The position numbers and the translations under genes are program-made. This document shows, in pieces, positions 29,060-38,843 of a stretch of DNA of 42,774 nt. The notes below the pieces were generated by a model that was not told the DNA's origin, did no database searches, and saw only the letters and a program-made list of their open reading frames with translations. Source of the DNA: Candidatus Saccharimonadota bacterium (GTDB lineage Bacteria > Patescibacteriota > Saccharimonadia > Saccharimonadales > Saccharimonadaceae); assembly GCA_030530425.1 (NCBI GenBank), contig JAUMVA010000004.1, positions 1-42,774 on the forward strand, given 5' to 3'. Each line of letters starts with the position of its first letter. Position 1 is the stretch's first letter.

Positions 29060-29767
29060 ATGACAAAAACGATCTTTCAACGTCGCAGGTTACTAGCACT
29101 GGCGATAATGCTAATAACGACGACTATCGCGTTATCGCAGTCTAGTTCTGAACAATGGCAAAAATATATTCAAGATTGGCGTGAATTTTTGGGCTACGAT
29201 CTAGGTCTAGCTAAAACTGAGACAAATCAAAATACAGTAGCACTATTAGAAAGTCTTGAGGTTAAAGGGCGCGCACCTAAAACGGGTTATTCTCGTGAAC
29301 AGTTTAGTGATGGCTGGGCAAGAATTGATGGCTGCGATATGCGCAATCGAATCTTACAACGTGATCTAGTTGATGTGAAAATTGATCAAAAATGTAATGT
29401 TGTGTCTGGTAAACTTAACGATCAATACACGGGAAAAACGATCAATTTTGAGCGCGGACAAGCGACTAGCTCAGCAGTTCAGATTGATCACATTGTAGCA
29501 GTTAGTGATGCTTGGCAAAAAGGTGCTCAGCAACTAACTTATGAACAACGTCACGCTTTTTATAATGATCCAGATAATTTAATCGCCTCAGACGGTCCAG
29601 CTAACCAGCAAAAAGGTGATAGTGATGCCGCTTCGTGGCTACCACCGAACAAATCTTTTCGTTGTCAATATGTAACGCGCCAAATCATCATCAAAGCCCG
29701 TTATCAATTATGGGTGACGGCAGCGGAAAAAGAGGCAATGGTGCGTGAGTTAAATAAATGCGTATGA
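29060..29767 (+). CDS. Secreted HNH (DUF1524-type) nuclease
   Basis: A probable extracellular nuclease. The 235 residues begin with an Arg-rich n-region and hydrophobic helix (about 4-26), then an extracytoplasmic HNH domain. That domain has QIDHIVAVSDAW (Asp143, His144), DPDNLIASDGPANQQKGD (Asn173, Lys185) and WLPP, typical of the DUF1524/GmrSD C-terminal family as seen in actinobacterial secreted nucleases. Four Cys (92, 112, 202, 234) could form two disulfides. In a host-dependent bacterium with little nucleotide synthesis it may release nucleotides from external DNA, or act as a toxin. The role is inferred; the domain call is strong. Confidence 0.88.
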   Translation: MTKTIFQRRRLLALAIMLITTTIALSQSSSEQWQKYIQDWREFLGYDLGLAKTETNQNTVALLESLEVKGRAPKTGYSREQFSDGWARIDGCDMRNRILQRDLVDVKIDQKCNVVSGKLNDQYTGKTINFERGQATSSAVQIDHIVAVSDAWQKGAQQLTYEQRHAFYNDPDNLIASDGPANQQKGDSDAASWLPPNKSFRCQYVTRQIIIKARYQLWVTAAEKEAMVRELNKCV

Positions 29768-29830
29768 CTTGATTATATAATTATTCTAGCGGGAACTGAT
29801 TTGCATGCACGCCTCAGGATAATATGGTGC

Positions 29831-29878
29831 TATATCAATTTACCAGGGCTTTTATGGTTAATGCTAAATTGAGATATA
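29831..29878 (+). repeat. Imperfect inverted repeat downstream of the nuclease gene
   Basis: TATATCAATTTA (29831-29842) can pair with TAAATTGAGATATA (29865-29878) over 12 bp with bulged bases in the second arm, closing a 22-base loop. No clear U tract follows. It may be a weak terminator or a structured 3' end. I see nothing else in 29768-29930. Confidence 0.35.
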
Positions 29879-29934
29879 AAAAATAATGTATTAACAAAAC
29901 TGATGAGTGATATAAAACGACCGAAGTTTTAATA

Positions 29935-29963
29935 TTGACAATTAAACATAAGTATGATATAAT
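29935..29963 (+). promoter_or_regulatory. Full-consensus orphan promoter
   Basis: TTGACA, a 17-base spacer and TATAAT, with TGA directly before the -10. It is the best promoter seen in the window. No gene on the plus strand follows: the next gene is trigger factor on the opposite strand. Confidence 0.75.
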
Positions 29964-29969
29964 GAAAAT

Positions 29970-30044
29970 ATTAGTTGATAATAAATCACTAAAAATATTT
30001 TTTGTTTCAAAAAATCGCCCTTAGTCGAAGAGCGATTTTTTCTT
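29970..30044 (+). ncRNA. Candidate small RNA of about 75 nt
   Basis: The consensus promoter predicts a start near 29970. Transcription would meet a strong hairpin-plus-T-run terminator ending near 30041-30044. The transcript contains a small 5' hairpin (TGAT with ATCA at 29976-29988), an A/U-rich middle and the terminator stem. A 20-codon frame from the ATG at 29962 would start inside the -10 box, so the RNA is probably noncoding. I recognise no known RNA family in it. Confidence 0.5.
30009..30041. terminator. Bidirectional terminator shared by the small RNA and trigger factor
   Basis: A ten-bp stem (AAAAAATCGC with GCGATTTTTT), extended inward by CTT/AAG, has A and T runs that work in both directions. 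Confidence 0.8.
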
Positions 30045-30058
30045 TGGGTTAATTTAAA

Positions 30059-31342
30059 TTATTTACTATTTAATTCAACAATTCGATCAATCGTTTTGTT
30101 GGTTAATAAATTATTGCGTAAGTCGCGCCAAACTAACGGATTTTCGAGTTGCTTTATAGCATCTTTATTGTTTGCATATTGCGTACGTAATTCGGTCAAT
30201 TTTTGATCAACTTCTTCTTCGGTAACATCAATTTTTTCTAATTTTGAGATCTCAGCAATTGCTAGGCCAGCTTTAACACGAATCTCAGCCGCTGGCTCGA
30301 GCTCGGTTTTTTGCCAATCTTCTTCGGTTTTGTTGATTGTTTCTAAATATTGCTCAAGATTCATGCCTTGGTAAGCTAGATTTTGTGTCAAATCATGTTT
30401 TAAGGAGTTAATTTGATCTTGGATTAAGACTTCTGGCAAGGCAGATTTGGTGTTTTTTGCAAGTTCGTCAACCAAATCATCACGAAACTTATTGTCAGCT
30501 TCTTCTTGTTTTTGAACAATGAGATTTTTGCGGATGTCGGCTTTAAAATCTGTTAGTTTTTCGAATTGACCAGTTTTTTTAGCTAAATCATCATTGATAT
30601 CTGGCAACTTGACTTCCAAGACTTTCTTCAGTTCGGTTGTAAAAACAACTGGTTTGCCAGCTAATTTTTTAGCATGATAATCTTTTGGAAACTTAAGTTT
30701 AAGATCAAATCGTTCACCAGCTTTTTTACCGACTACGCCGTCTTCAAATCCAGGAATAAACTGACCAGAACCAAGTTCGAGCGTAAAATCTTTAGCCGCA
30801 CCACCGTCAAACGGTTGATCGTCAATATAGCCAGTAAAATCAATAACTACTTTGTCGCCAAGTTTTGCCTCACGATCAACTAATTCTTCGTTAGCAAAGC
30901 CTTTTTGCAATCGTTCTAAAATGTCAGTTACGTCTTTATCAGTTACTTTAGGCTCAGTTTTTTTAACTTTTAAGCTTTTGTAATTTGGTAACTTAACTGG
31001 CGGTACAATGCTAATTACGGCAGTAAACTCCAATTCTTGTTCTGGCACAAATTTAGTAATATCAATACGTGGTTGATCCAGTGGATGAATATCTTCTTGC
31101 TCAAAGGCATCAACTAGAGCGTAATTAATCGCTAGCTCGATGATTCGATTTGACAACACTGACGGATCAAGTTGCTTTTTAGCAACGTTGGTTGGAACTT
31201 TGCCTTTACGAAAACCTTTAATGCTAACAGTTGGAGCTAATTCCTTCAGGGCTTTGACTTCAGCCGCGTCAAGTAAGCTTTTTTCAAGTTTAATTATTAA
31301 TTTAGTTTCAGTTTCTGATAATTGTTGCTTCTCTATATTCAT
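30059..31342 (-). CDS. tig: Trigger factor chaperone/prolyl isomerase
   Basis: A ribosome-bound chaperone that meets nascent chains at the exit tunnel. The 427 residues contain the ribosome-binding signature GFRKGKVP (residues 38-45), an FKBP-type isomerase domain (about 150-240, GDKVVIDFTGYIDDQPFDGG) and the helical C-terminal arm domain. The gene stands alone, with its -10 box placed for leaderless transcription. clpP, often beside tig in other bacteria, lies about 7 kb away here. Confidence 0.96.
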   Translation of the reverse strand: MNIEKQQLSETETKLIIKLEKSLLDAAEVKALKELAPTVSIKGFRKGKVPTNVAKKQLDPSVLSNRIIELAINYALVDAFEQEDIHPLDQPRIDITKFVPEQELEFTAVISIVPPVKLPNYKSLKVKKTEPKVTDKDVTDILERLQKGFANEELVDREAKLGDKVVIDFTGYIDDQPFDGGAAKDFTLELGSGQFIPGFEDGVVGKKAGERFDLKLKFPKDYHAKKLAGKPVVFTTELKKVLEVKLPDINDDLAKKTGQFEKLTDFKADIRKNLIVQKQEEADNKFRDDLVDELAKNTKSALPEVLIQDQINSLKHDLTQNLAYQGMNLEQYLETINKTEEDWQKTELEPAAEIRVKAGLAIAEISKLEKIDVTEEEVDQKLTELRTQYANNKDAIKQLENPLVWRDLRNNLLTNKTIDRIVELNSK

Positions 31343-31349
31343 GGTCGCT

Positions 31350-31358
31350 ATTATAGCA
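31350..31358 (-). promoter_or_regulatory. Extended -10 promoter at the tig start
   Basis: TGC-TATAAT on the minus strand, seven bases before the ATG at 31342. It predicts a leaderless transcript. Confidence 0.65.
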
Positions 31359-31477
31359 TTTTTTGGTGATTATTCCAACTTAAGTTCACTAGCGTGCAGC
31401 CAGAAATAAATGTATAAAATGCATTTAAACAATAAATCTTCAATTAACTGTTTCACATTGCTGGCGTTAGACTATTC

Positions 31478-31494
31478 GTTTTTATCATAAAAAC
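31478..31494. repeat. 17-bp perfect palindrome upstream of the surface protein gene
   Basis: GTTTTTAT and ATAAAAAC flank a single central C. It lies about 30 bases upstream of the surface protein -10 box, so an operator role is possible. It could equally be a short hairpin or chance in AT-rich DNA. Confidence 0.3.
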
Positions 31495-31524
31495 AGAAAA
31501 ACTATAGCCAAACTTAACCATAAC

Positions 31525-31533
31525 TGCTATAAT
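31525..31533 (+). promoter_or_regulatory. Extended -10 promoter of the surface protein gene
   Basis: TGC-TATAAT followed by a leader of about 28 bases carrying AAAGGGAAG just before the GTG start. This is a leadered message with a Shine-Dalgarno sequence. Confidence 0.65.
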
Positions 31534-31568
31534 TAACAAGTTAAAACTAAAACAAAGAAAGGGAAGAT

Positions 31569-34007
31569 GTGTTTCTACAAAAATTGAAGCATAAGTTTCG
31601 AGTGAAGATAACTCACGGCTTGCTGATTTTAGCATTGCTAATCAGTGGCGTGGGTGTATTTTTTACTCAAAACAGCGCATATGCGGAAGGATTAGCTCAT
31701 AACATTATTGTGAATGATACTCCATATGCGATTAACACCAACCCGAGTGGAACGGGGTGGAAAATTCAAGGAGGGGATTTGACCTTGAATAACTTCGATG
31801 GTCAGAGTATTGAGGTCGATGGCGCAATCCGAATTACTTTAAAGGGTAATAATAAGATTACGCAAAAAATTAAAGCCGATGGTGGCAAAGTGATTATCGC
31901 TGGAGATGGTACTTTGACCGTTGATCATCAGCAAAGGACTGACGTAGCAGCCTTATTCAAGAATGGTTTGCTTGTGGAATCGGGTAAGCTAGTGGTAACA
32001 AATGCTAACTATCAAGTTAATATTAAGGATTCTTACACTGCATTATCAGTGGACGGCGGTTTGGAGATCAACTCGGGTGCGACAGTTGAAACTAAAGTTG
32101 TAATTCCGAATAATAAAGGTAATTACCAAAAAGCGCTTTCATACTCTGGTTTATTAAAAGTTGCTGGTAGTCTAACTACTGAAGTTGTTTATAATACTAC
32201 TATTGCTGGTAATTTACATGCAATTCATGCTTTTGGTGATATGGAAGTTACAGCAACGGGTGCGATTAAGGCTAGCTCTCCAGATAAGGCAATAACCATG
32301 ACTCCGGGCAAACAATTTTTGCTAGCGGATGGTGTACGAATTGCTTCACCAAAAACTCATAGGGTGTCTGATAATAAGCAGACTATCGTGCCATATGTAC
32401 CAAATAGTCTCGAAATCAAACAAGCTCCAGAACCGACTTTTACTATCAGTAAAGATTCATCAATGATCAATGGCGATATTCAAATTAGCCCAACTCAAGC
32501 TCAGGAAGGTCAGGAAGTGCAAATTACTGCTCAACCGCAACCTGGCTATAAGCTGAAGACCTTGTCGTATCTACCGGATATGCCAAATGCACTTGAGGAA
32601 ACAATCAACGGTGACAAGTTTAATATGCCACGCAGTGATGTTAAAGTAAAAGCTGAATTTAAAAAAGAAGAATATACTGTAACGGTTGGCGTCGAAGGTG
32701 CAGTACTTGGTGGTATTGTTGTGACCCCAGTCAAGCCAAAATACGACTATAATGAGCCGATAAAAATTGAAATCGCGGCCGACCCACATCACGTGATTAA
32801 ATCACTCAAAAAAAATGGTCAAACTATTGCCGAAGCGGTTGGTAAAGAAAACCATACTGTTGATGCTAATGTGACTGAAAATCTCGATTATAAAGTTGAG
32901 TTTGAGTCAGCTCCAACAGTTCAATATCAGCTGACTGTCAACTGTGGTGTAGGCGGAACTTGCACTCCAAATGGTGTTTCACAGTATAATGCGGGCGCAG
33001 TGGTAACAATAACTCTGACGCCAGAAACTGGCAAGCGTGTTAAAACCGTCACTGGCGCAACTAAAGTTAATGATACGACTTATACGGTGGTGATGAATTC
33101 AGCGAAAACTGTTGCAGTGGAATTTGAGCTAATTTCAACTCCGCCGACGACTTATAATATCACCAAAGGGGCGATGACACATGGTGATATAACACTCAGC
33201 AAAACCCAAGCTGCTAAAGACGAAGAAATTACGATTGCACCTCAACCAGCTCTAGGTTATAAGTTGAAAAAACTAACTTACACGCCAGTTGGTGAAAGTG
33301 CGGTGGATATCACCAGTACTTTGAAATTCACTATGCCAGAGAAGGCTGTCGAGGTTAATGCTGAGTTTGAGCCACGAACTTTTACCTTGACGATTAACTG
33401 TGGTGCTGGTGGTGCTTGTACACCATCAGCAACTGGTCCGCATACTTACGGTACCGAAGTGACGATCACTTTAACTCCTGAAGCTGACAAAAAAGTTAAA
33501 AACGTTACTGGTGCTACCAAAATTACTGATACAACCTATAAAGTAACTATGGATTCAGATAAGACTGTTGCGGTAGAATTTGAGAATAAAACCTCGACTC
33601 CACTTTCACCAGTTCCAGGGATTAAAGTTAATAAAACTATAATTGATCAAGACCAAGAAATTACCGTTTCGGTAGAGAATTTGACTACTTATGAAGGTCA
33701 AGAGCTAGATGTCTGGCTACAATCTAACCCGAGATTAGTCGGCAAAATGACGGTTTTGGCGGGCAAAGCAAGCTTGAAGTTCAAAATTCCTTGTGATGTG
33801 ACTGCTGGCGCGCATACTATTTATGTCAAATCCGGCAATACTAACGTACTATCACGAGGTATTACGGTTTCGGCTGGTAGAACTTGCTCTCGATTTGGTG
33901 CTCCAAATACTGGCTATCGCCCAGCTCAAATATCAGCAGTGGCTATCATCGCTGGTTGTTTAGCTAGTTTAACTGGCGTAGTTATTTTTATTAAAAAACG
34001 CGCTTAA
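31569..34007 (+). CDS. Large repeat-containing surface protein with PNTG sorting-like tail
   Basis: A probable adhesin or wall-attached protein. The 812 residues start at GTG with a good ribosome binding site. They have a signal peptide (about 1-38, ending SAYA), then a beta-strand-rich region with carbohydrate-dockerin or pectate-lyase-like feel (about 40-270). Alternating Ig-like InlB-B/bacterial-repeat units follow (about 280-680). Two units share YNI/TIS...GDI...GYKLK, and two others share NCGxGGxCTP with a Cys pair each. The tail has APNTG (778-782), a hydrophobic helix and KKRA, resembling an LPxTG sorting signal with Leu replaced. No sortase is encoded in the window. Confidence 0.82.
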   Translation: MFLQKLKHKFRVKITHGLLILALLISGVGVFFTQNSAYAEGLAHNIIVNDTPYAINTNPSGTGWKIQGGDLTLNNFDGQSIEVDGAIRITLKGNNKITQKIKADGGKVIIAGDGTLTVDHQQRTDVAALFKNGLLVESGKLVVTNANYQVNIKDSYTALSVDGGLEINSGATVETKVVIPNNKGNYQKALSYSGLLKVAGSLTTEVVYNTTIAGNLHAIHAFGDMEVTATGAIKASSPDKAITMTPGKQFLLADGVRIASPKTHRVSDNKQTIVPYVPNSLEIKQAPEPTFTISKDSSMINGDIQISPTQAQEGQEVQITAQPQPGYKLKTLSYLPDMPNALEETINGDKFNMPRSDVKVKAEFKKEEYTVTVGVEGAVLGGIVVTPVKPKYDYNEPIKIEIAADPHHVIKSLKKNGQTIAEAVGKENHTVDANVTENLDYKVEFESAPTVQYQLTVNCGVGGTCTPNGVSQYNAGAVVTITLTPETGKRVKTVTGATKVNDTTYTVVMNSAKTVAVEFELISTPPTTYNITKGAMTHGDITLSKTQAAKDEEITIAPQPALGYKLKKLTYTPVGESAVDITSTLKFTMPEKAVEVNAEFEPRTFTLTINCGAGGACTPSATGPHTYGTEVTITLTPEADKKVKNVTGATKITDTTYKVTMDSDKTVAVEFENKTSTPLSPVPGIKVNKTIIDQDQEITVSVENLTTYEGQELDVWLQSNPRLVGKMTVLAGKASLKFKIPCDVTAGAHTIYVKSGNTNVLSRGITVSAGRTCSRFGAPNTGYRPAQISAVAIIAGCLASLTGVVIFIKKRA

Positions 34008-34034
34008 AACGTTGCTTTTCAGCCAAAAGTCAGA

Positions 34035-34065
34035 AAACCCACCCTGTTGTATTCAGGGTGGGTTT
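34035..34065 (+). terminator. Rho-independent terminator of the surface protein gene
   Basis: A perfect 12-bp G/C-rich stem (AAACCCACCCTG with CAGGGTGGGTTT) with a seven-base loop, flanked by A and T runs. It may also stop hisS transcription, whose stop codon is about 115 bases away. Confidence 0.85.
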
Positions 34066-34181
34066 GTTATTTGTGTAATGCTGTTATTAGAAAAATAGGT
34101 AGAATATATTATAAACTTAAGAAACTATAATAAGCTTCTTTGTTCTCGCCAGAGCTGATTATTAAAATGCTTTAATGTTGA

Positions 34182-35465
34182 CTATTTTAAAGTTTTGATT
34201 AAGTCTTCGATGGTGAGTTCGGCAGACCGATTAGTTTTAATGTTTTTGAGGCTATATCGCCCAGTGGAAACTTCTCGCTCGCCAACGATAATTATGCCTG
34301 ACAGGGCTTTTTTGTCAGCTGATTTGATTTTTTTGGCCAATTTACGGTCAGTAAAGTCGGTTTCAATATTAATGCCGGCTTGGCGTAATTTTTGTGCTAA
34401 ATCAAGGGCAGCTATTTCCTGATGATCGAGCGATAGAATAATGTATTGAGTTAATGGTTTATATTCTGGAATAAGATTATGTGATTTAATAAACTCCAAA
34501 CAAGTCGAAGCACCAGGTGCCACGCCAACTGCCGAAATCGGTTCGGTGCCAAACATCCCAACTAGACCGTCGTAGCGTCCACCACCGAATAATGAGCGAT
34601 TATTATCCGGATCTGTGTCAAAAATCTCGAACACAGTTCCAGTGTAATAGTCTAATCCCCGCATCAATAACAGATCAAATTGAGCATTGGTGACTCCTTG
34701 AGCTTGCAAAATTGTCAAAATTTGTTGAATATTTTGATAGTATGGAGTTTGCTTTAGTTCGGTTGGTAATTTATCAAAATCAGAATTATTCAGCAGTTCA
34801 GTCAATTTAGTGACAGCCTCTTGACTGCTGTTTAATAGTTCAGCTAGTTTTTGCTCAAAAGTTTCCGACAGCAGCTTATCTTTTTGATCAAGCAATTTGA
34901 CTAGTTGATAACTTGTTTCATCATCAAGTTTCAAATATTGTTTGGTCATTGCGTTGATTAAACGTCGGTCATTGATTCTGATTTTAAACATGCTTTGATT
35001 AGCACCAAAATTTATTAACACCTGCCAAGCGAACAATAAAATTTCAGTATCAGCAAAAATTGAATCATCACCAAACAGATCAGCGTTTAACTGCCAAAAC
35101 TCACGCTCGCGACCTTTTTGTGGTCGTTCATAGCGCATAAAATTGGCAATTGAATACATTCTAGCTGGATAGGCTAATTCTTGACGTCGAGCAGCAATCA
35201 TTCGACAAATTGTTGGTGTCATTTCTGGGCGAATAGCCACTTCTCGCTTACCTCGGTCAGTAAAAGCGTAGGTTTGTTGGTTGGCAAGTTCATCACCTGA
35301 TTTGGCACGATAAATTTCAATTGGTTCGAGCAAGGGTGCGCCATATTCTTGAAAACCAAAACTTTGAGCCGTTTTGTGCCAATTGTTAAAAATTACATTT
35401 TGTAAAAACTTATCTTCTGGGTATAAATCACGGGTACCTTTATAGCTTTGGTTAGATAATTTCAT
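34182..35465 (-). CDS. hisS: Histidyl-tRNA synthetase
   Basis: A class II synthetase for tRNA-His. The 427 residues have GTRDLYPED near the N-terminus, motif 2 (RYERPQKGREREFWQLNADLFG) and the HisA motif LLMRGLDYYTGTVFEIF. Motif 3 is SLFGGGRYDGLVGMFG, and an anticodon-binding domain completes the C-terminus. AGGAA precedes the ATG, which overlaps the upstream gene's TGA by four bases (ATGA). Confidence 0.96.
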   Translation of the reverse strand: MKLSNQSYKGTRDLYPEDKFLQNVIFNNWHKTAQSFGFQEYGAPLLEPIEIYRAKSGDELANQQTYAFTDRGKREVAIRPEMTPTICRMIAARRQELAYPARMYSIANFMRYERPQKGREREFWQLNADLFGDDSIFADTEILLFAWQVLINFGANQSMFKIRINDRRLINAMTKQYLKLDDETSYQLVKLLDQKDKLLSETFEQKLAELLNSSQEAVTKLTELLNNSDFDKLPTELKQTPYYQNIQQILTILQAQGVTNAQFDLLLMRGLDYYTGTVFEIFDTDPDNNRSLFGGGRYDGLVGMFGTEPISAVGVAPGASTCLEFIKSHNLIPEYKPLTQYIILSLDHQEIAALDLAQKLRQAGINIETDFTDRKLAKKIKSADKKALSGIIIVGEREVSTGRYSLKNIKTNRSAELTIEDLIKTLK

Positions 35466-35716
35466 AAAATTTCCTGCTTGTTAGTTTCTGTCTTGTGGTT
35501 AGATTTGTGTCGTCGTTCCATGAATTTTAGAGTAATGAAACATATAATGTCAATAAAAGTGATAATTCCCAAGAAAATGAAATTTGGTTTATCAAAACCA
35601 TACTCTGTTTGCGGAATAATAAATGAACTGGCTGCAGTAATAAAAACTACTGCACTTAGAATGATAATAAAATACTCTAAAGTTTTTTGATTTAGAAAAG
35701 GTTTTTTATGCGTCAT
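35462..35716 (-). CDS. Small two-helix membrane protein
   Basis: Function not recognised. The 84 residues hold two hydrophobic helices (about 14-34 and 44-64), a short acidic loop between them and a Lys/His/Asn-rich tail. ATGA overlap with hisS makes co-transcription and translational coupling likely. A TGC-TATAAT box lies ten bases before the start ATG. It could simply supply the leader for hisS expression. Confidence 0.65.
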   Translation of the reverse strand: MTHKKPFLNQKTLEYFIIILSAVVFITAASSFIIPQTEYGFDKPNFIFLGIITFIDIICFITLKFMERRHKSNHKTETNKQEIL

Positions 35717-35726
35717 AACTGATTGT

Positions 35727-35735
35727 ATTATAGCA
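35727..35735 (-). promoter_or_regulatory. Extended -10 promoter of the small membrane protein-hisS unit
   Basis: TGC-TATAAT on the minus strand, ten bases before the ATG at 35716. The predicted leader is only a few bases long. Confidence 0.55.
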
Positions 35736-35815
35736 TAAGGTTGCTTAAACTAAAATAAATCTAGATAATGTGATGACTTAAATATAGTATTTAGCTGTAT
35801 TATAAAACAAAAAAC

Positions 35816-35832
35816 CACGATCATTGATCGCG
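35816..35832 (-). terminator. Terminator of tRNA-Leu
   Basis: On the minus strand a seven-bp stem (CGCGATC with GATCGTG, one G-U pair) with a three-base loop is followed by GTTTTTT. It lies 15 bases past the tRNA 3' end. I see nothing else in 35736-35807. Confidence 0.65.
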
Positions 35833-35847
35833 ATTTAACTACATACG

Positions 35848-35932
35848 TGGTGCCGCGGAAAAGACTCGAACTTTCACATCTTGCGATACTAGCTCCTAAG
35901 GCTAGCGTGTCTACCAATTCCACCACCGCGGC
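35848..35932 (-). tRNA. tRNA-Leu (anticodon UAG)
   Basis: A class II tRNA read on the minus strand. The acceptor stem is GCCGCGG/CCGCGGC, and the D-arm contains TGGTAGACA. The anticodon stem is CTAGC/GCTAG with loop CTTAGGA, giving anticodon UAG, which reads CUA and other CUN codons. A long variable arm typical of tRNA-Leu is present, and the T loop is TTCGAGT. The discriminator is A73, and the CCA end is encoded. The gene has its own promoter and terminator. Confidence 0.95.
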
Positions 35933-35946
35933 AAAATTGTGTTCTT

Positions 35947-35975
35947 ATTATATCAAAAATCTATGGAAATGCCAA
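35947..35975 (-). promoter_or_regulatory. Promoter of tRNA-Leu
   Basis: On the minus strand TTGGCA (35975-35970), a 17-base spacer and TATAAT (35952-35947) with TGA before it, ending 14 bases before the tRNA 5' end. It is one of only two promoters here with a recognisable -35 box. Confidence 0.75.
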
Positions 35976-35976
35976 T

Positions 35977-36018
35977 AATTTATAGAATAATATTTGTAAA
36001 AACTTTATTCTATAAATT
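35977..36018. repeat. Perfect 14-bp inverted repeat in the FAD oxidase promoter region
   Basis: Arms 35977-35990 (AATTTATAGAATAA) and 36005-36018 are exact inverted copies separated by 14 bases. The right arm covers the -35 region of the FAD oxidase promoter, and the left arm abuts the tRNA -35 box. This is the position of an operator for a dimeric regulator; a hairpin in AT-rich DNA is the alternative. Confidence 0.5.
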
Positions 36019-36023
36019 GTTTA

Positions 36024-36032
36024 TGGTATTAT
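36024..36032 (+). promoter_or_regulatory. Extended -10 promoter at the FAD oxidase start
   Basis: TGG-TATTAT, six bases before the ATG at 36039. It predicts a leaderless transcript. Confidence 0.55.
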
Positions 36033-36038
36033 TAAAGT

Positions 36039-37640
36039 ATGGATCGAATTGCTAATTATTTGAATAGTCATTTAACCGGAGAGGTCGTTGCTCAGGAAAC
36101 TATTCTAGAGGCTTTTAGCCAAGATCGTGGCGCTTTTAAATCGCGACCAAACAGTATAGTTTTTGCTCAAAATTCAGCTGATATTTGTAAAACTGTTTGT
36201 TTGTGTTCACAGCTAGCTGAGCGTGGAAAGTCTCTGACGGTTAGTGTTCGTGGAAATGGTAATGATTTTACTGGCTCAACTTTAACTAGTGAAATCATAA
36301 TCAACACTAGTAGGCGGTTTAATGAAATTATTGATTTTGATCCAGACCAGGCTTTAATTCATGTTCAGTCTGGTGCTGATTTATCAATGATAAATATACT
36401 AGCCAAAACTCAAGGTTTGAGCCTGCCGGTAACATCTACTGCGATCAAACACACAATCGGTGGGGTGATTGGCAATAATTTAATCTATCCATTAGCCAAT
36501 AAGTCTAATTTAATTCATCGAATGATTAACCAACTAGAGGTGGTTCTAGCTGATGGAACGACTTTGCAAACTAAACGCTTAACAAAGCGTGAATTAAATC
36601 GTAAAATCGGTTTACAAACAACCGAGGGACGAATTTATCGTGAAATTGATAAATTGATTGAGGATAATCAAGATTTAATAAACAAAATTGATGCAGAAGC
36701 TGTGGATAATGGAGGTTATGCAATGATTTCGCGAGTTAAAACCGCTAATTCATTTGACCTGTCGCCATTATTTGTTGGAGCTCAAGGCACATTAGGTGTT
36801 ATCACTGAAGCAATTTTAAACTTGCAAGATTACCAACCGGGTTCAGTTAAAATCTGGGCAAGTTTCTCTAGTTTAGTTGATGCGATGGATGCAACAGACA
36901 ATTTATTAAAATTAAAGCCGACTGCTTTGGATATTTATGAGCATAAATTGTTTCAACAGGCGGCAAGAAGAGGGCGTAGTTTTACTACTATTGATGAGGC
37001 TAATAAGCAGTTTGAAAATAAAGCAGCTTTTCATTTGCTGATTGAGCTTCCATTAAAAAGTAACTTTTCTGCCAAAAAAATAAGTAAGAAAATAAAAAAT
37101 ATCATCAAGGCCGCTCATGGTATAAGCTTTGAAGATCCGGCTGATTTACGAACAGTGCGCGACCTGCCTCAATCATTTGATTTTAGCGATAACTTATACC
37201 AAAATATTGAATTAGCGCATGGTGCAATGATTCCACGGGTGCGTTGGCGTGATTTTACTGAATCAGTAGCAAAGATTGAAACTACACTTGGAATAACTTT
37301 ACCTATTTATGGTTCGGCATTAACTAATATTTTAAATCTACAGACTTTACTTAATTTAAGTAATATGGCTGATAAACAAAAAGTTATAAAACTTAGTGAC
37401 AGTTACTGTCGGTTGGCGACTGATTTGAACGGAGTAGTATGTGCTAGCGGTGGTGAAGGCTTGGCGAAAGGAATGTTCGTTCATAAACAAATGTCACCAG
37501 AATTGGCTCAATTGTATAACCAAATTAAACAGATTTTTGATCCACAAGCAATTTTTAGTCCCGAGATTAAAAAACCACTTGATTTACGAAATGTGGCAGG
37601 ACGGATTGCTAGTCAAGCAAAAAATGATTTCTCAATCTAG
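36039..37640 (+). CDS. FAD-linked oxidase (GlcD/D-lactate dehydrogenase-like)
   Basis: A probable FAD-dependent 2-hydroxyacid dehydrogenase. The 533 residues have a PCMH-type FAD domain (about 20-270: SVRGNGNDFTGSTL, SLPVTSTAIKHTIGGVIGNN, VGAQGTLGVITEA) and a C-terminal oxidase cap. The C-terminus has the usual IFDPQAIFSP. There is no Fe-S domain of the longer GlpC-fused forms. The substrate (lactate, glycolate or another 2-hydroxyacid) and the electron acceptor cannot be read from sequence. It overlaps the SpoU gene by 17 bases. The inverted repeat in its promoter suggests regulated expression. Confidence 0.88.
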   Translation: MDRIANYLNSHLTGEVVAQETILEAFSQDRGAFKSRPNSIVFAQNSADICKTVCLCSQLAERGKSLTVSVRGNGNDFTGSTLTSEIIINTSRRFNEIIDFDPDQALIHVQSGADLSMINILAKTQGLSLPVTSTAIKHTIGGVIGNNLIYPLANKSNLIHRMINQLEVVLADGTTLQTKRLTKRELNRKIGLQTTEGRIYREIDKLIEDNQDLINKIDAEAVDNGGYAMISRVKTANSFDLSPLFVGAQGTLGVITEAILNLQDYQPGSVKIWASFSSLVDAMDATDNLLKLKPTALDIYEHKLFQQAARRGRSFTTIDEANKQFENKAAFHLLIELPLKSNFSAKKISKKIKNIIKAAHGISFEDPADLRTVRDLPQSFDFSDNLYQNIELAHGAMIPRVRWRDFTESVAKIETTLGITLPIYGSALTNILNLQTLLNLSNMADKQKVIKLSDSYCRLATDLNGVVCASGGEGLAKGMFVHKQMSPELAQLYNQIKQIFDPQAIFSPEIKKPLDLRNVAGRIASQAKNDFSI

Positions 37641-38217
37641 TAAAGCACTAAAACCAGACGATCCGCGAATCGATCAAGAATTGTTACAAAATGGTGATCG
37701 GCGTAATGTTGTTGATAAGTATCGTTTTTGGAGCAACGAGGCAATTAAAGCTGATATGCAATCGCATGCAACTGACCTGGAGGTTGCGATTGAAAATTTA
37801 ACTCATGATTTTAATATCGGCACAGTGGTTCGTAATGCTAACGCTTTTAATGTTCGGAAAGTCCACATTATCGGTCGCAAACAGTGGAATAAACGCGGAG
37901 CTATGGTAACTAATCGTTATTTAGAAATTGAACATCATGCAACAATCGATGATTTTTTACAGAGCATAGATGCTGACTATCAGCTAATTGCGATCGATAA
38001 CCAGGATGGTGCGCAAAATTTGACACAGTTCAATTTACCGCAAAAAAGTATTTTGATTTTTGGCAGCGAATCAGATGGAATCTCACCAGAATCATTATCT
38101 AAAACTTCAGCTATGGTTCAAATCGAACAACTTGGTTCAACTCGTTCTGTTAATGTGGGTGTGGCATCAGGAATTGCAATGTATGAGTGGACTAGGCGTC
38201 ATATTTTTACGAAATAG
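37624..38217 (+). CDS. SpoU/TrmH family RNA methyltransferase, second copy
   Basis: A 2'-O-methyltransferase of the SPOUT fold. The ATG at 37624 gives 197 residues that start just before the family domain; an in-frame start at 37441 would add 61 residues lying inside the oxidase gene. Motifs are HDFNIGTVVRNANAFNVRKV, IFGSESDGIS and GSTRSVNVGVASGIAMYEW. An N-terminal extension (about 45 residues, basic and acidic) precedes the domain. It is not closely similar to the copy at 22086-22577 outside the motifs, so the two probably have different RNA targets. Confidence 0.88.
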   Translation: MISQSSKALKPDDPRIDQELLQNGDRRNVVDKYRFWSNEAIKADMQSHATDLEVAIENLTHDFNIGTVVRNANAFNVRKVHIIGRKQWNKRGAMVTNRYLEIEHHATIDDFLQSIDADYQLIAIDNQDGAQNLTQFNLPQKSILIFGSESDGISPESLSKTSAMVQIEQLGSTRSVNVGVASGIAMYEWTRRHIFTK

Positions 38218-38225
38218 TGATAATA

Positions 38226-38234
38226 TGTTAGAAT
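38226..38234 (+). promoter_or_regulatory. Extended -10 promoter at the clpP start
   Basis: TGT-TAGAAT, six bases before the clpP ATG at 38241. It predicts a leaderless transcript. Confidence 0.5.
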
Positions 38235-38240
38235 ATCTTT

Positions 38241-38843
38241 ATGAATAATTTTTTAGTGCCAACCGTTATTGAAGAAACCAATCGAGGTGAACGAGCTTTT
38301 GATATTTATTCCAGATTATTAAAAGAACGAATTGTTTTTTTGGGCGAAGATGTAAATTATCATACAGCCAACATTATCGTTGCACAATTATTACACTTGG
38401 CTTATGAAAATCCAGATGAAGATATTAAATTTTACATTAATTCACCAGGCGGTTCAGTCTATGACGGTTTGGCAATTTATGACACTATGCAATATATAAA
38501 ACCAGATGTACAAACGATTGGCATTGGTTTGCAAGCAAGCATGGGTGCTTTTTTGCTATCAAGTGGTGCAAAAGGTAAACGCTTTGTTTTACCGAGTAGC
38601 AGAATTATGATTCATCAACCATCTTCTGGAACGCGTGGTAAGATTACTGATCAAGAAATTGATTTGCGTGAGAGTGTCTTTTTGAAAAATGAATTAAATC
38701 GGATTCTGGCAAAAAATACTGGTCAAAAAATATCAAAAATCGAAAAAGACGTTGATCGTGATTATTGGATGAGTGCTAAAGAAGCTGTCGAATACGGTTT
38801 GATTGATCAAATATTGACTTTTGATAAAACTAAAACCAGATAA
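38241..38843 (+). CDS. clpP: ATP-dependent Clp protease proteolytic subunit
   Basis: A barrel-shaped serine protease that works with Clp ATPases. The 200 residues match the family length and contain the catalytic triad Ser100 ([11 protein letters not shown]), His125 (MIHQP) and Asp174 (DVDRDYWM). The N-terminal [20 protein letters not shown] and [13 protein letters not shown] segments are typical. No Clp ATPase gene lies in the window. Confidence 0.97.

Follow-up and report, generated by a model that had tools for sequence, protein, structure and literature searches.

A perfect promoter without a gene beside tig in a Candidatus Saccharimonadota bacterium, probably orphaned by a local rearrangement

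In a 42,774-nucleotide stretch of Candidatus Saccharimonadota DNA (hereafter the window), a perfect promoter with no gene behind it is followed at short distance by an intrinsic terminator next to tig, in an unusual gene order. We think it probable that this intact promoter was orphaned by a local rearrangement, and that it would give rise to a short, probably functionless RNA ending at the terminator of tig. A functional, lineage-specific regulatory RNA of about 72 nt, acting in trans or on the convergent tig gene of this reduced-genome bacterium, appears unlikely to us.

Results

The promoter

The promoter lies on the forward strand at 29935-29963 and is of the sigma-70 extended -10 type. 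The two hexamers, TTGACA (29935-29940) and TATAAT (29958-29963), are 17 nt apart, within the 16-18 nt of this class, and match the consensus at 12/12 positions; TG is found at 29955-29956, one base 5' of the -10 box. An earlier note on this DNA had called the site the best promoter in the window. It is indeed the sole 12/12 site there, for 0.021 expected by chance (first-order Markov simulation, spacers of 16-18 nt), and 6 Mb of sequence simulated with a first-order Markov model contained no TG-extended perfect site. Genome-wide counts were obtained by pattern searches and by examining individual stretches. Over the 661 kb of the genome, 8 perfect sites were counted against 1 with a reversed control pattern, and TG-extended sites with at most two mismatches numbered 88 against 10. 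Because these frequencies are far above both simulation and control, the site is no chance match; judged by its sequence, it is a genuine promoter of the housekeeping type.

The -10 box is followed by the discriminator GAAAATAT (29964-29971, forward strand), similar to the GAAAGTAT present after many promoters of the same genome, and transcription is predicted to start near 29970. Upstream of the promoter lies the gene of a 235-aa protein with a GmrSD_C (HNH-type nuclease) domain assigned by Pfam (29060-29767, forward strand). Downstream, no open reading frame is found on the same strand, which bears out the earlier statement that the promoter points at no gene.

Three further sites in the window score 11/12: 8740-8712 (-), 35553-35524 (-) and 35975-35947 (-), the last being the promoter of tRNA-Leu. 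The tRNA-Leu promoter had been described as the only other one with a clear -35 box. This is not the case, since the first of these sites reads TTGACT-17-TATAAT with TG and the second contains TTGACA. The near-perfect, TG-extended site at 8740-8712 has no gene start ahead of it and points antisense into the neighbouring reading frames.

Genes served by this promoter class

The 29 near-perfect sites of this genome (perfect or with one mismatch) were classified. In twenty-two cases a protein-sized reading frame follows, with a hairpin in the leader in two of them. One precedes tRNA-Leu, one precedes a structured non-coding RNA, and the remaining five (the 29935-29963 site and loci L068, L074, L076 and L078) have no gene; two of the five run antisense into reading frames. 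Promoters without a gene are not rare here, as they represent about one in six near-perfect sites.

The 29935-29963 site also matches, with 0 mismatches, a longer consensus, TTGACWWTTWARCAYAARTRTGATATAATG, that describes the ordinary extended -10 sigma-70 promoters of the family: the -35 box, spacer, TG, -10 box and following G are all the same. With up to two mismatches, TTGACWWTTWARCAYAARTRTGATATAATG is present in 39 of 198 family genomes, for 0 control matches. Among 29 such loci in relatives, about 27 lie before a reading frame, one before tRNA-Ser and one before a short terminator. By this comparison, the site is the group's ordinary strong promoter, which mostly serves protein genes. It differs in what comes next, since the ordinary family promoters are mostly followed by coding sequence or a tRNA, and this one by a terminator. 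The view that its design matches that of stable-RNA genes did not survive the census: protein genes predominate both here and in relatives, RNase P has TTGCTT as its -35 box, and tmRNA has TTTACA, only at 19-nt spacing. A stable-RNA promoter design was ruled out on these counts.

The spacer, about TTGACTTTTWAGCAYAARTRTGATATAATGAAAGTAT, is conserved family-wide, for example in G009 (35 sites) and in the present genome (G000) at C1:8870, C9:4844, C10:69219 and C14:8712. A conserved spacer is unusual among sigma-70 promoters, and this one may reflect either an overlapping regulator site or a sigma factor preference particular to the lineage. At two loci of G000, L063 (C1:8870) and L066 (C9:4844), a hairpin and a T-run lie at most 50 nt past the strong promoter, before the coding sequence; these hairpins are possible attenuators. 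In two relatives, a strong promoter stands directly before a terminator (L002 in G009, L174 in G198), and the product would be little beyond the hairpin. Both pairs have tRNA genes just upstream.

In many promoters of this kind, an ATG stands 7-10 nt past the -10 box (L169-L171, L176, L177, L189-L192 and L196; L065, L070 and L073 in G000), a spacing that suggests common use of leaderless mRNAs in this group. The promoter at 29935-29963 might likewise serve a very small gene, leaderless or encoding a short peptide, and a 20-codon frame, MKILVDNKSLKIFFVSKNRP, does overlap it. However, the ATG of this frame begins within the -10 box, at 29962, and precedes every plausible transcription start; no start codon is present 7-10 nt past the box. 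The sequence past the predicted start lacks an ATG, its TTG frame has 5 codons, and no family match was obtained. With no credible frame and no family match, a small peptide was ruled out, and we regard this explanation as extremely improbable.

The terminator

A hairpin followed by a T-run was found at 30009-30041 by direct folding; it was unlisted by a simple terminator scan. Transcription from near 29970 would end there after about 72 nt, in agreement with the strong terminator previously placed about 70 bases downstream. The hairpin is a bidirectional intrinsic terminator, common to the predicted RNA (forward strand) and to tig (reverse strand). The tig gene (30059-31342, reverse strand) encodes trigger factor (427 aa; Pfam Trigger_N, Trigger_C and FKBP_C) and converges on the promoter. 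The terminator had been described as lying opposite the tail of tig. It is in fact outside the reading frame, just past the stop codon (30059), from which the end of the hairpin is separated by 17 nt.

The hairpin has 14 consecutive pairs and -15.4 kcal/mol on the tig strand, against about -11 kcal/mol on the forward strand, where a G-U pair of the reverse strand becomes a C/A mismatch. A U-run follows the hairpin on the tig strand, as expected of a tig terminator, and in many relatives the tig terminator is found 15-30 nt past the stop. Because of its short distance to the tig stop and its better pairing on that strand, it was assigned to tig. The parsimonious reading is that 30009-30041 is tig's own terminator, which would end the forward transcript by being bidirectional.

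This convergent layout around a common bidirectional terminator would also suit a device acting in cis. Polymerases from the promoter could collide with, or read into, the 3' end of tig and lower its expression, or the convergent transcript could insulate tig from transcription of the nuclease gene. Bacteria are known to form antisense RNA by reading through terminators (PMC8745188). Strong promoters just before terminators also occur elsewhere, at L068 in the same genome and, in relatives, at L002 and L174. Nevertheless, a tig-facing promoter of this kind is present in no relative (89 loci), and the terminator looks good on the forward strand, so low read-through is expected. A cis-acting device is, in our opinion, improbable.

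The predicted RNA

The predicted transcript would extend from near 29970 to the hairpin at 30009-30041. Its body (29970-30008, forward strand) is A+T-rich, with a weak hairpin only and no usable open reading frame. The layout of a small-RNA gene, with a promoter, an intrinsic terminator and no reading frame between them, is present, the terminator being common with tig. Folding of the 40-nt body (29970-30009) revealed no excess structure over shuffled sequence (z -0.64), and the z of -3.42 for the whole predicted RNA is owed to the terminator hairpin.

An Rfam search of the predicted RNA gave no family over the gathering threshold. A known RNA family was therefore ruled out, as the earlier note had anticipated. 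Weak alignments over the A+T-rich body and the terminator hairpin were obtained with MCS4 (RF02713; 21.6 bits, E 0.55, gathering threshold 56 bits) and NsiR4 (RF02677; 15.7 bits, E 0.39, gathering threshold 40 bits); the common part is mainly a terminator-like hairpin, and both were treated as chance. When a 161-bp stretch was compared by BLAST with 60 relatives from other genera, the matches examined corresponded to the promoter core or to A+T-rich chance similarity. A search for a phage origin gave no match, and the exact promoter-plus-body pattern was absent from viral contigs. In the literature searched, neither a small-RNA survey of Saccharibacteria nor any published small RNA of this group was found.

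If the site encoded a trans-acting small RNA specific to this lineage, the RNA, about 72 nt long, would have its own promoter and a terminator hairpin common with tig, and would pair with target mRNAs via its mostly unpaired, A+T-rich 40-nt body. The isolated perfect promoter, the discrete predicted size, the intrinsic-terminator end and the lack of a reading frame are consistent with such an RNA, and a promoter of the same class does drive a real, conserved non-coding RNA at another place in the genome (see below). On the other hand, the body is low-complexity A/T sequence with no more structure than shuffled sequence, no homologue in the 60 relatives and no Rfam match, and the terminator pairs better for tig. 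A structured body is not found in every real small RNA, so the z of the body lowers the case for a small RNA without excluding it. On balance, we consider a trans-acting small RNA rather doubtful. Thus, of the candidate new small RNA proposed earlier, the promoter, a plausible transcript of about 72 nt and the lack of a known family are retained, but its body shows neither structure beyond chance nor homologues in the relatives compared.

Orphan promoters and short intergenic transcripts of other bacteria likewise combine a strong promoter without a gene and a short, terminated non-coding product. Compared with these, the promoter at 29935-29963 is unusually perfect, and transcription here is a prediction from sequence.

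Gene order and conservation

In relatives, tig is usually followed by clpP, which was found downstream of it in 60 of 89 tig loci (within the stretch examined). Here, clpP (38241-38843, forward strand) is 8.2 kb from tig and on the opposite strand. The tig-clpP interval of relatives often contains a CIRCE-like CTAGCACTC-GAGTGCTAG element; here (30059-38843) the pair is split and mutually inverted. Homologues of the GmrSD_C nuclease were detected in 87 of 100 relatives, and the nuclease gene was beside tig in none of the 89 tig loci. A single inversion of the tig block, broken within the promoter-bearing intergenic stretch, would account for the order nuclease - tig - clpP, yet it does not tell which gene the promoter formerly served. 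Six-frame pieces of 29768-30058 gave no match to Pfam, and a decayed-gene remnant in this interval is unsupported.

By comparison with these loci, the gene arrangement is peculiar to this lineage, and non-conservation is accordingly expected whether the promoter is an orphan or belongs to a young small RNA. Moreover, the relatives compared were from other genera only, the nearest tig proteins being about 50% identical, and non-conservation is therefore weak evidence. At the 89 tig loci of these other genera, no antisense promoter better than 10/12 was found in the approximately 400 nt downstream of tig. The earlier note had named lack of conservation in relatives as a ground for abandoning the small RNA. 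Such a lack was observed for the promoter at these loci and for the body in all 60 genomes, but with none from the same genus it makes a weak test. After the nuclease gene, a promoter of at least 10/12 with TG was found in 0/29 relatives, and the promoter as a conserved companion of this gene was ruled out.

A conserved structured RNA with the same promoter class

A perfect promoter of the same class at C10:51091-51063 of G000 is followed by about 240 nt of non-coding sequence. This locus, L058 (C10:50797-51091, reverse strand), has a consensus promoter and a terminator of its own, and specifies a structured non-coding RNA whose length is about 240-330 nt. Rfam gave no match to this RNA even at E 0.5. 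Homologues were found by BLAST in 17 of 24 family relatives; the loci recorded in relatives are L090-L106 and L198-L208.

Ten sequences were aligned over the 3' half of the RNA. The consensus structure has 38 pairs, with 98.2% of cells paired, against 44-53% for slid structures. Thirteen pairs are changed on both sides, against 4.4 in shuffles, and 0/500 shuffles equalled that number. A covariance model detected one copy each in 7/7 family genomes sampled and in 4/6 of the order's other families; across the rest of the phylum sample it gave no match. Copies of known extent have a promoter of this general type at their start, and the loop of their end hairpin is GAUGCCCACCCUU or close to it.

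RNase P and tmRNA were found in the G000 genome, and the small bacterial SRP RNA model gave no match over the whole of it. The missing SRP RNA may be either very divergent or in an assembly gap. By eye, the L058 RNA does not contain the SRP motif GGAAGGAAGCAG. Altogether, these comparisons make it a candidate new RNA family.

Discussion

Most likely, RNA polymerase would start near 29970, copy about 72 bases and stop at tig's bidirectional terminator, which would block transcription from entering tig as antisense. The resulting A+T-rich, non-coding RNA would probably have no function of its own. The promoter probably became separated from its gene by the same event, a rearrangement or a loss of genes, that parted tig from clpP in this lineage.

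We favour an orphaned promoter because its class serves protein genes, because 5/29 near-perfect sites of this genome have no gene, and because the terminator is assigned to tig. The body has no structure beyond chance, no homologue and no Rfam match, the gene order is private, and no equally strong promoter exists at the 89 tig loci or after the 29 nuclease genes of relatives, all of which argue in the same direction. Two points stand against it. A useless promoter should decay, but this one has perfect hexamers, the TG and a discriminator close to consensus; the site was therefore either orphaned recently or is under selection. Furthermore, the analysis recognised no gene remnant in 29768-30058 and identified no candidate for the lost gene.

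With about one near-perfect promoter in six lacking a gene in this genome, the presence of such an orphan, even a perfect one, is not enough to infer a small RNA in this lineage. The L058 RNA deserves more attention than the finding at 29935-30044, and would genuinely extend what is known of RNA biology in this group of reduced-genome bacteria.
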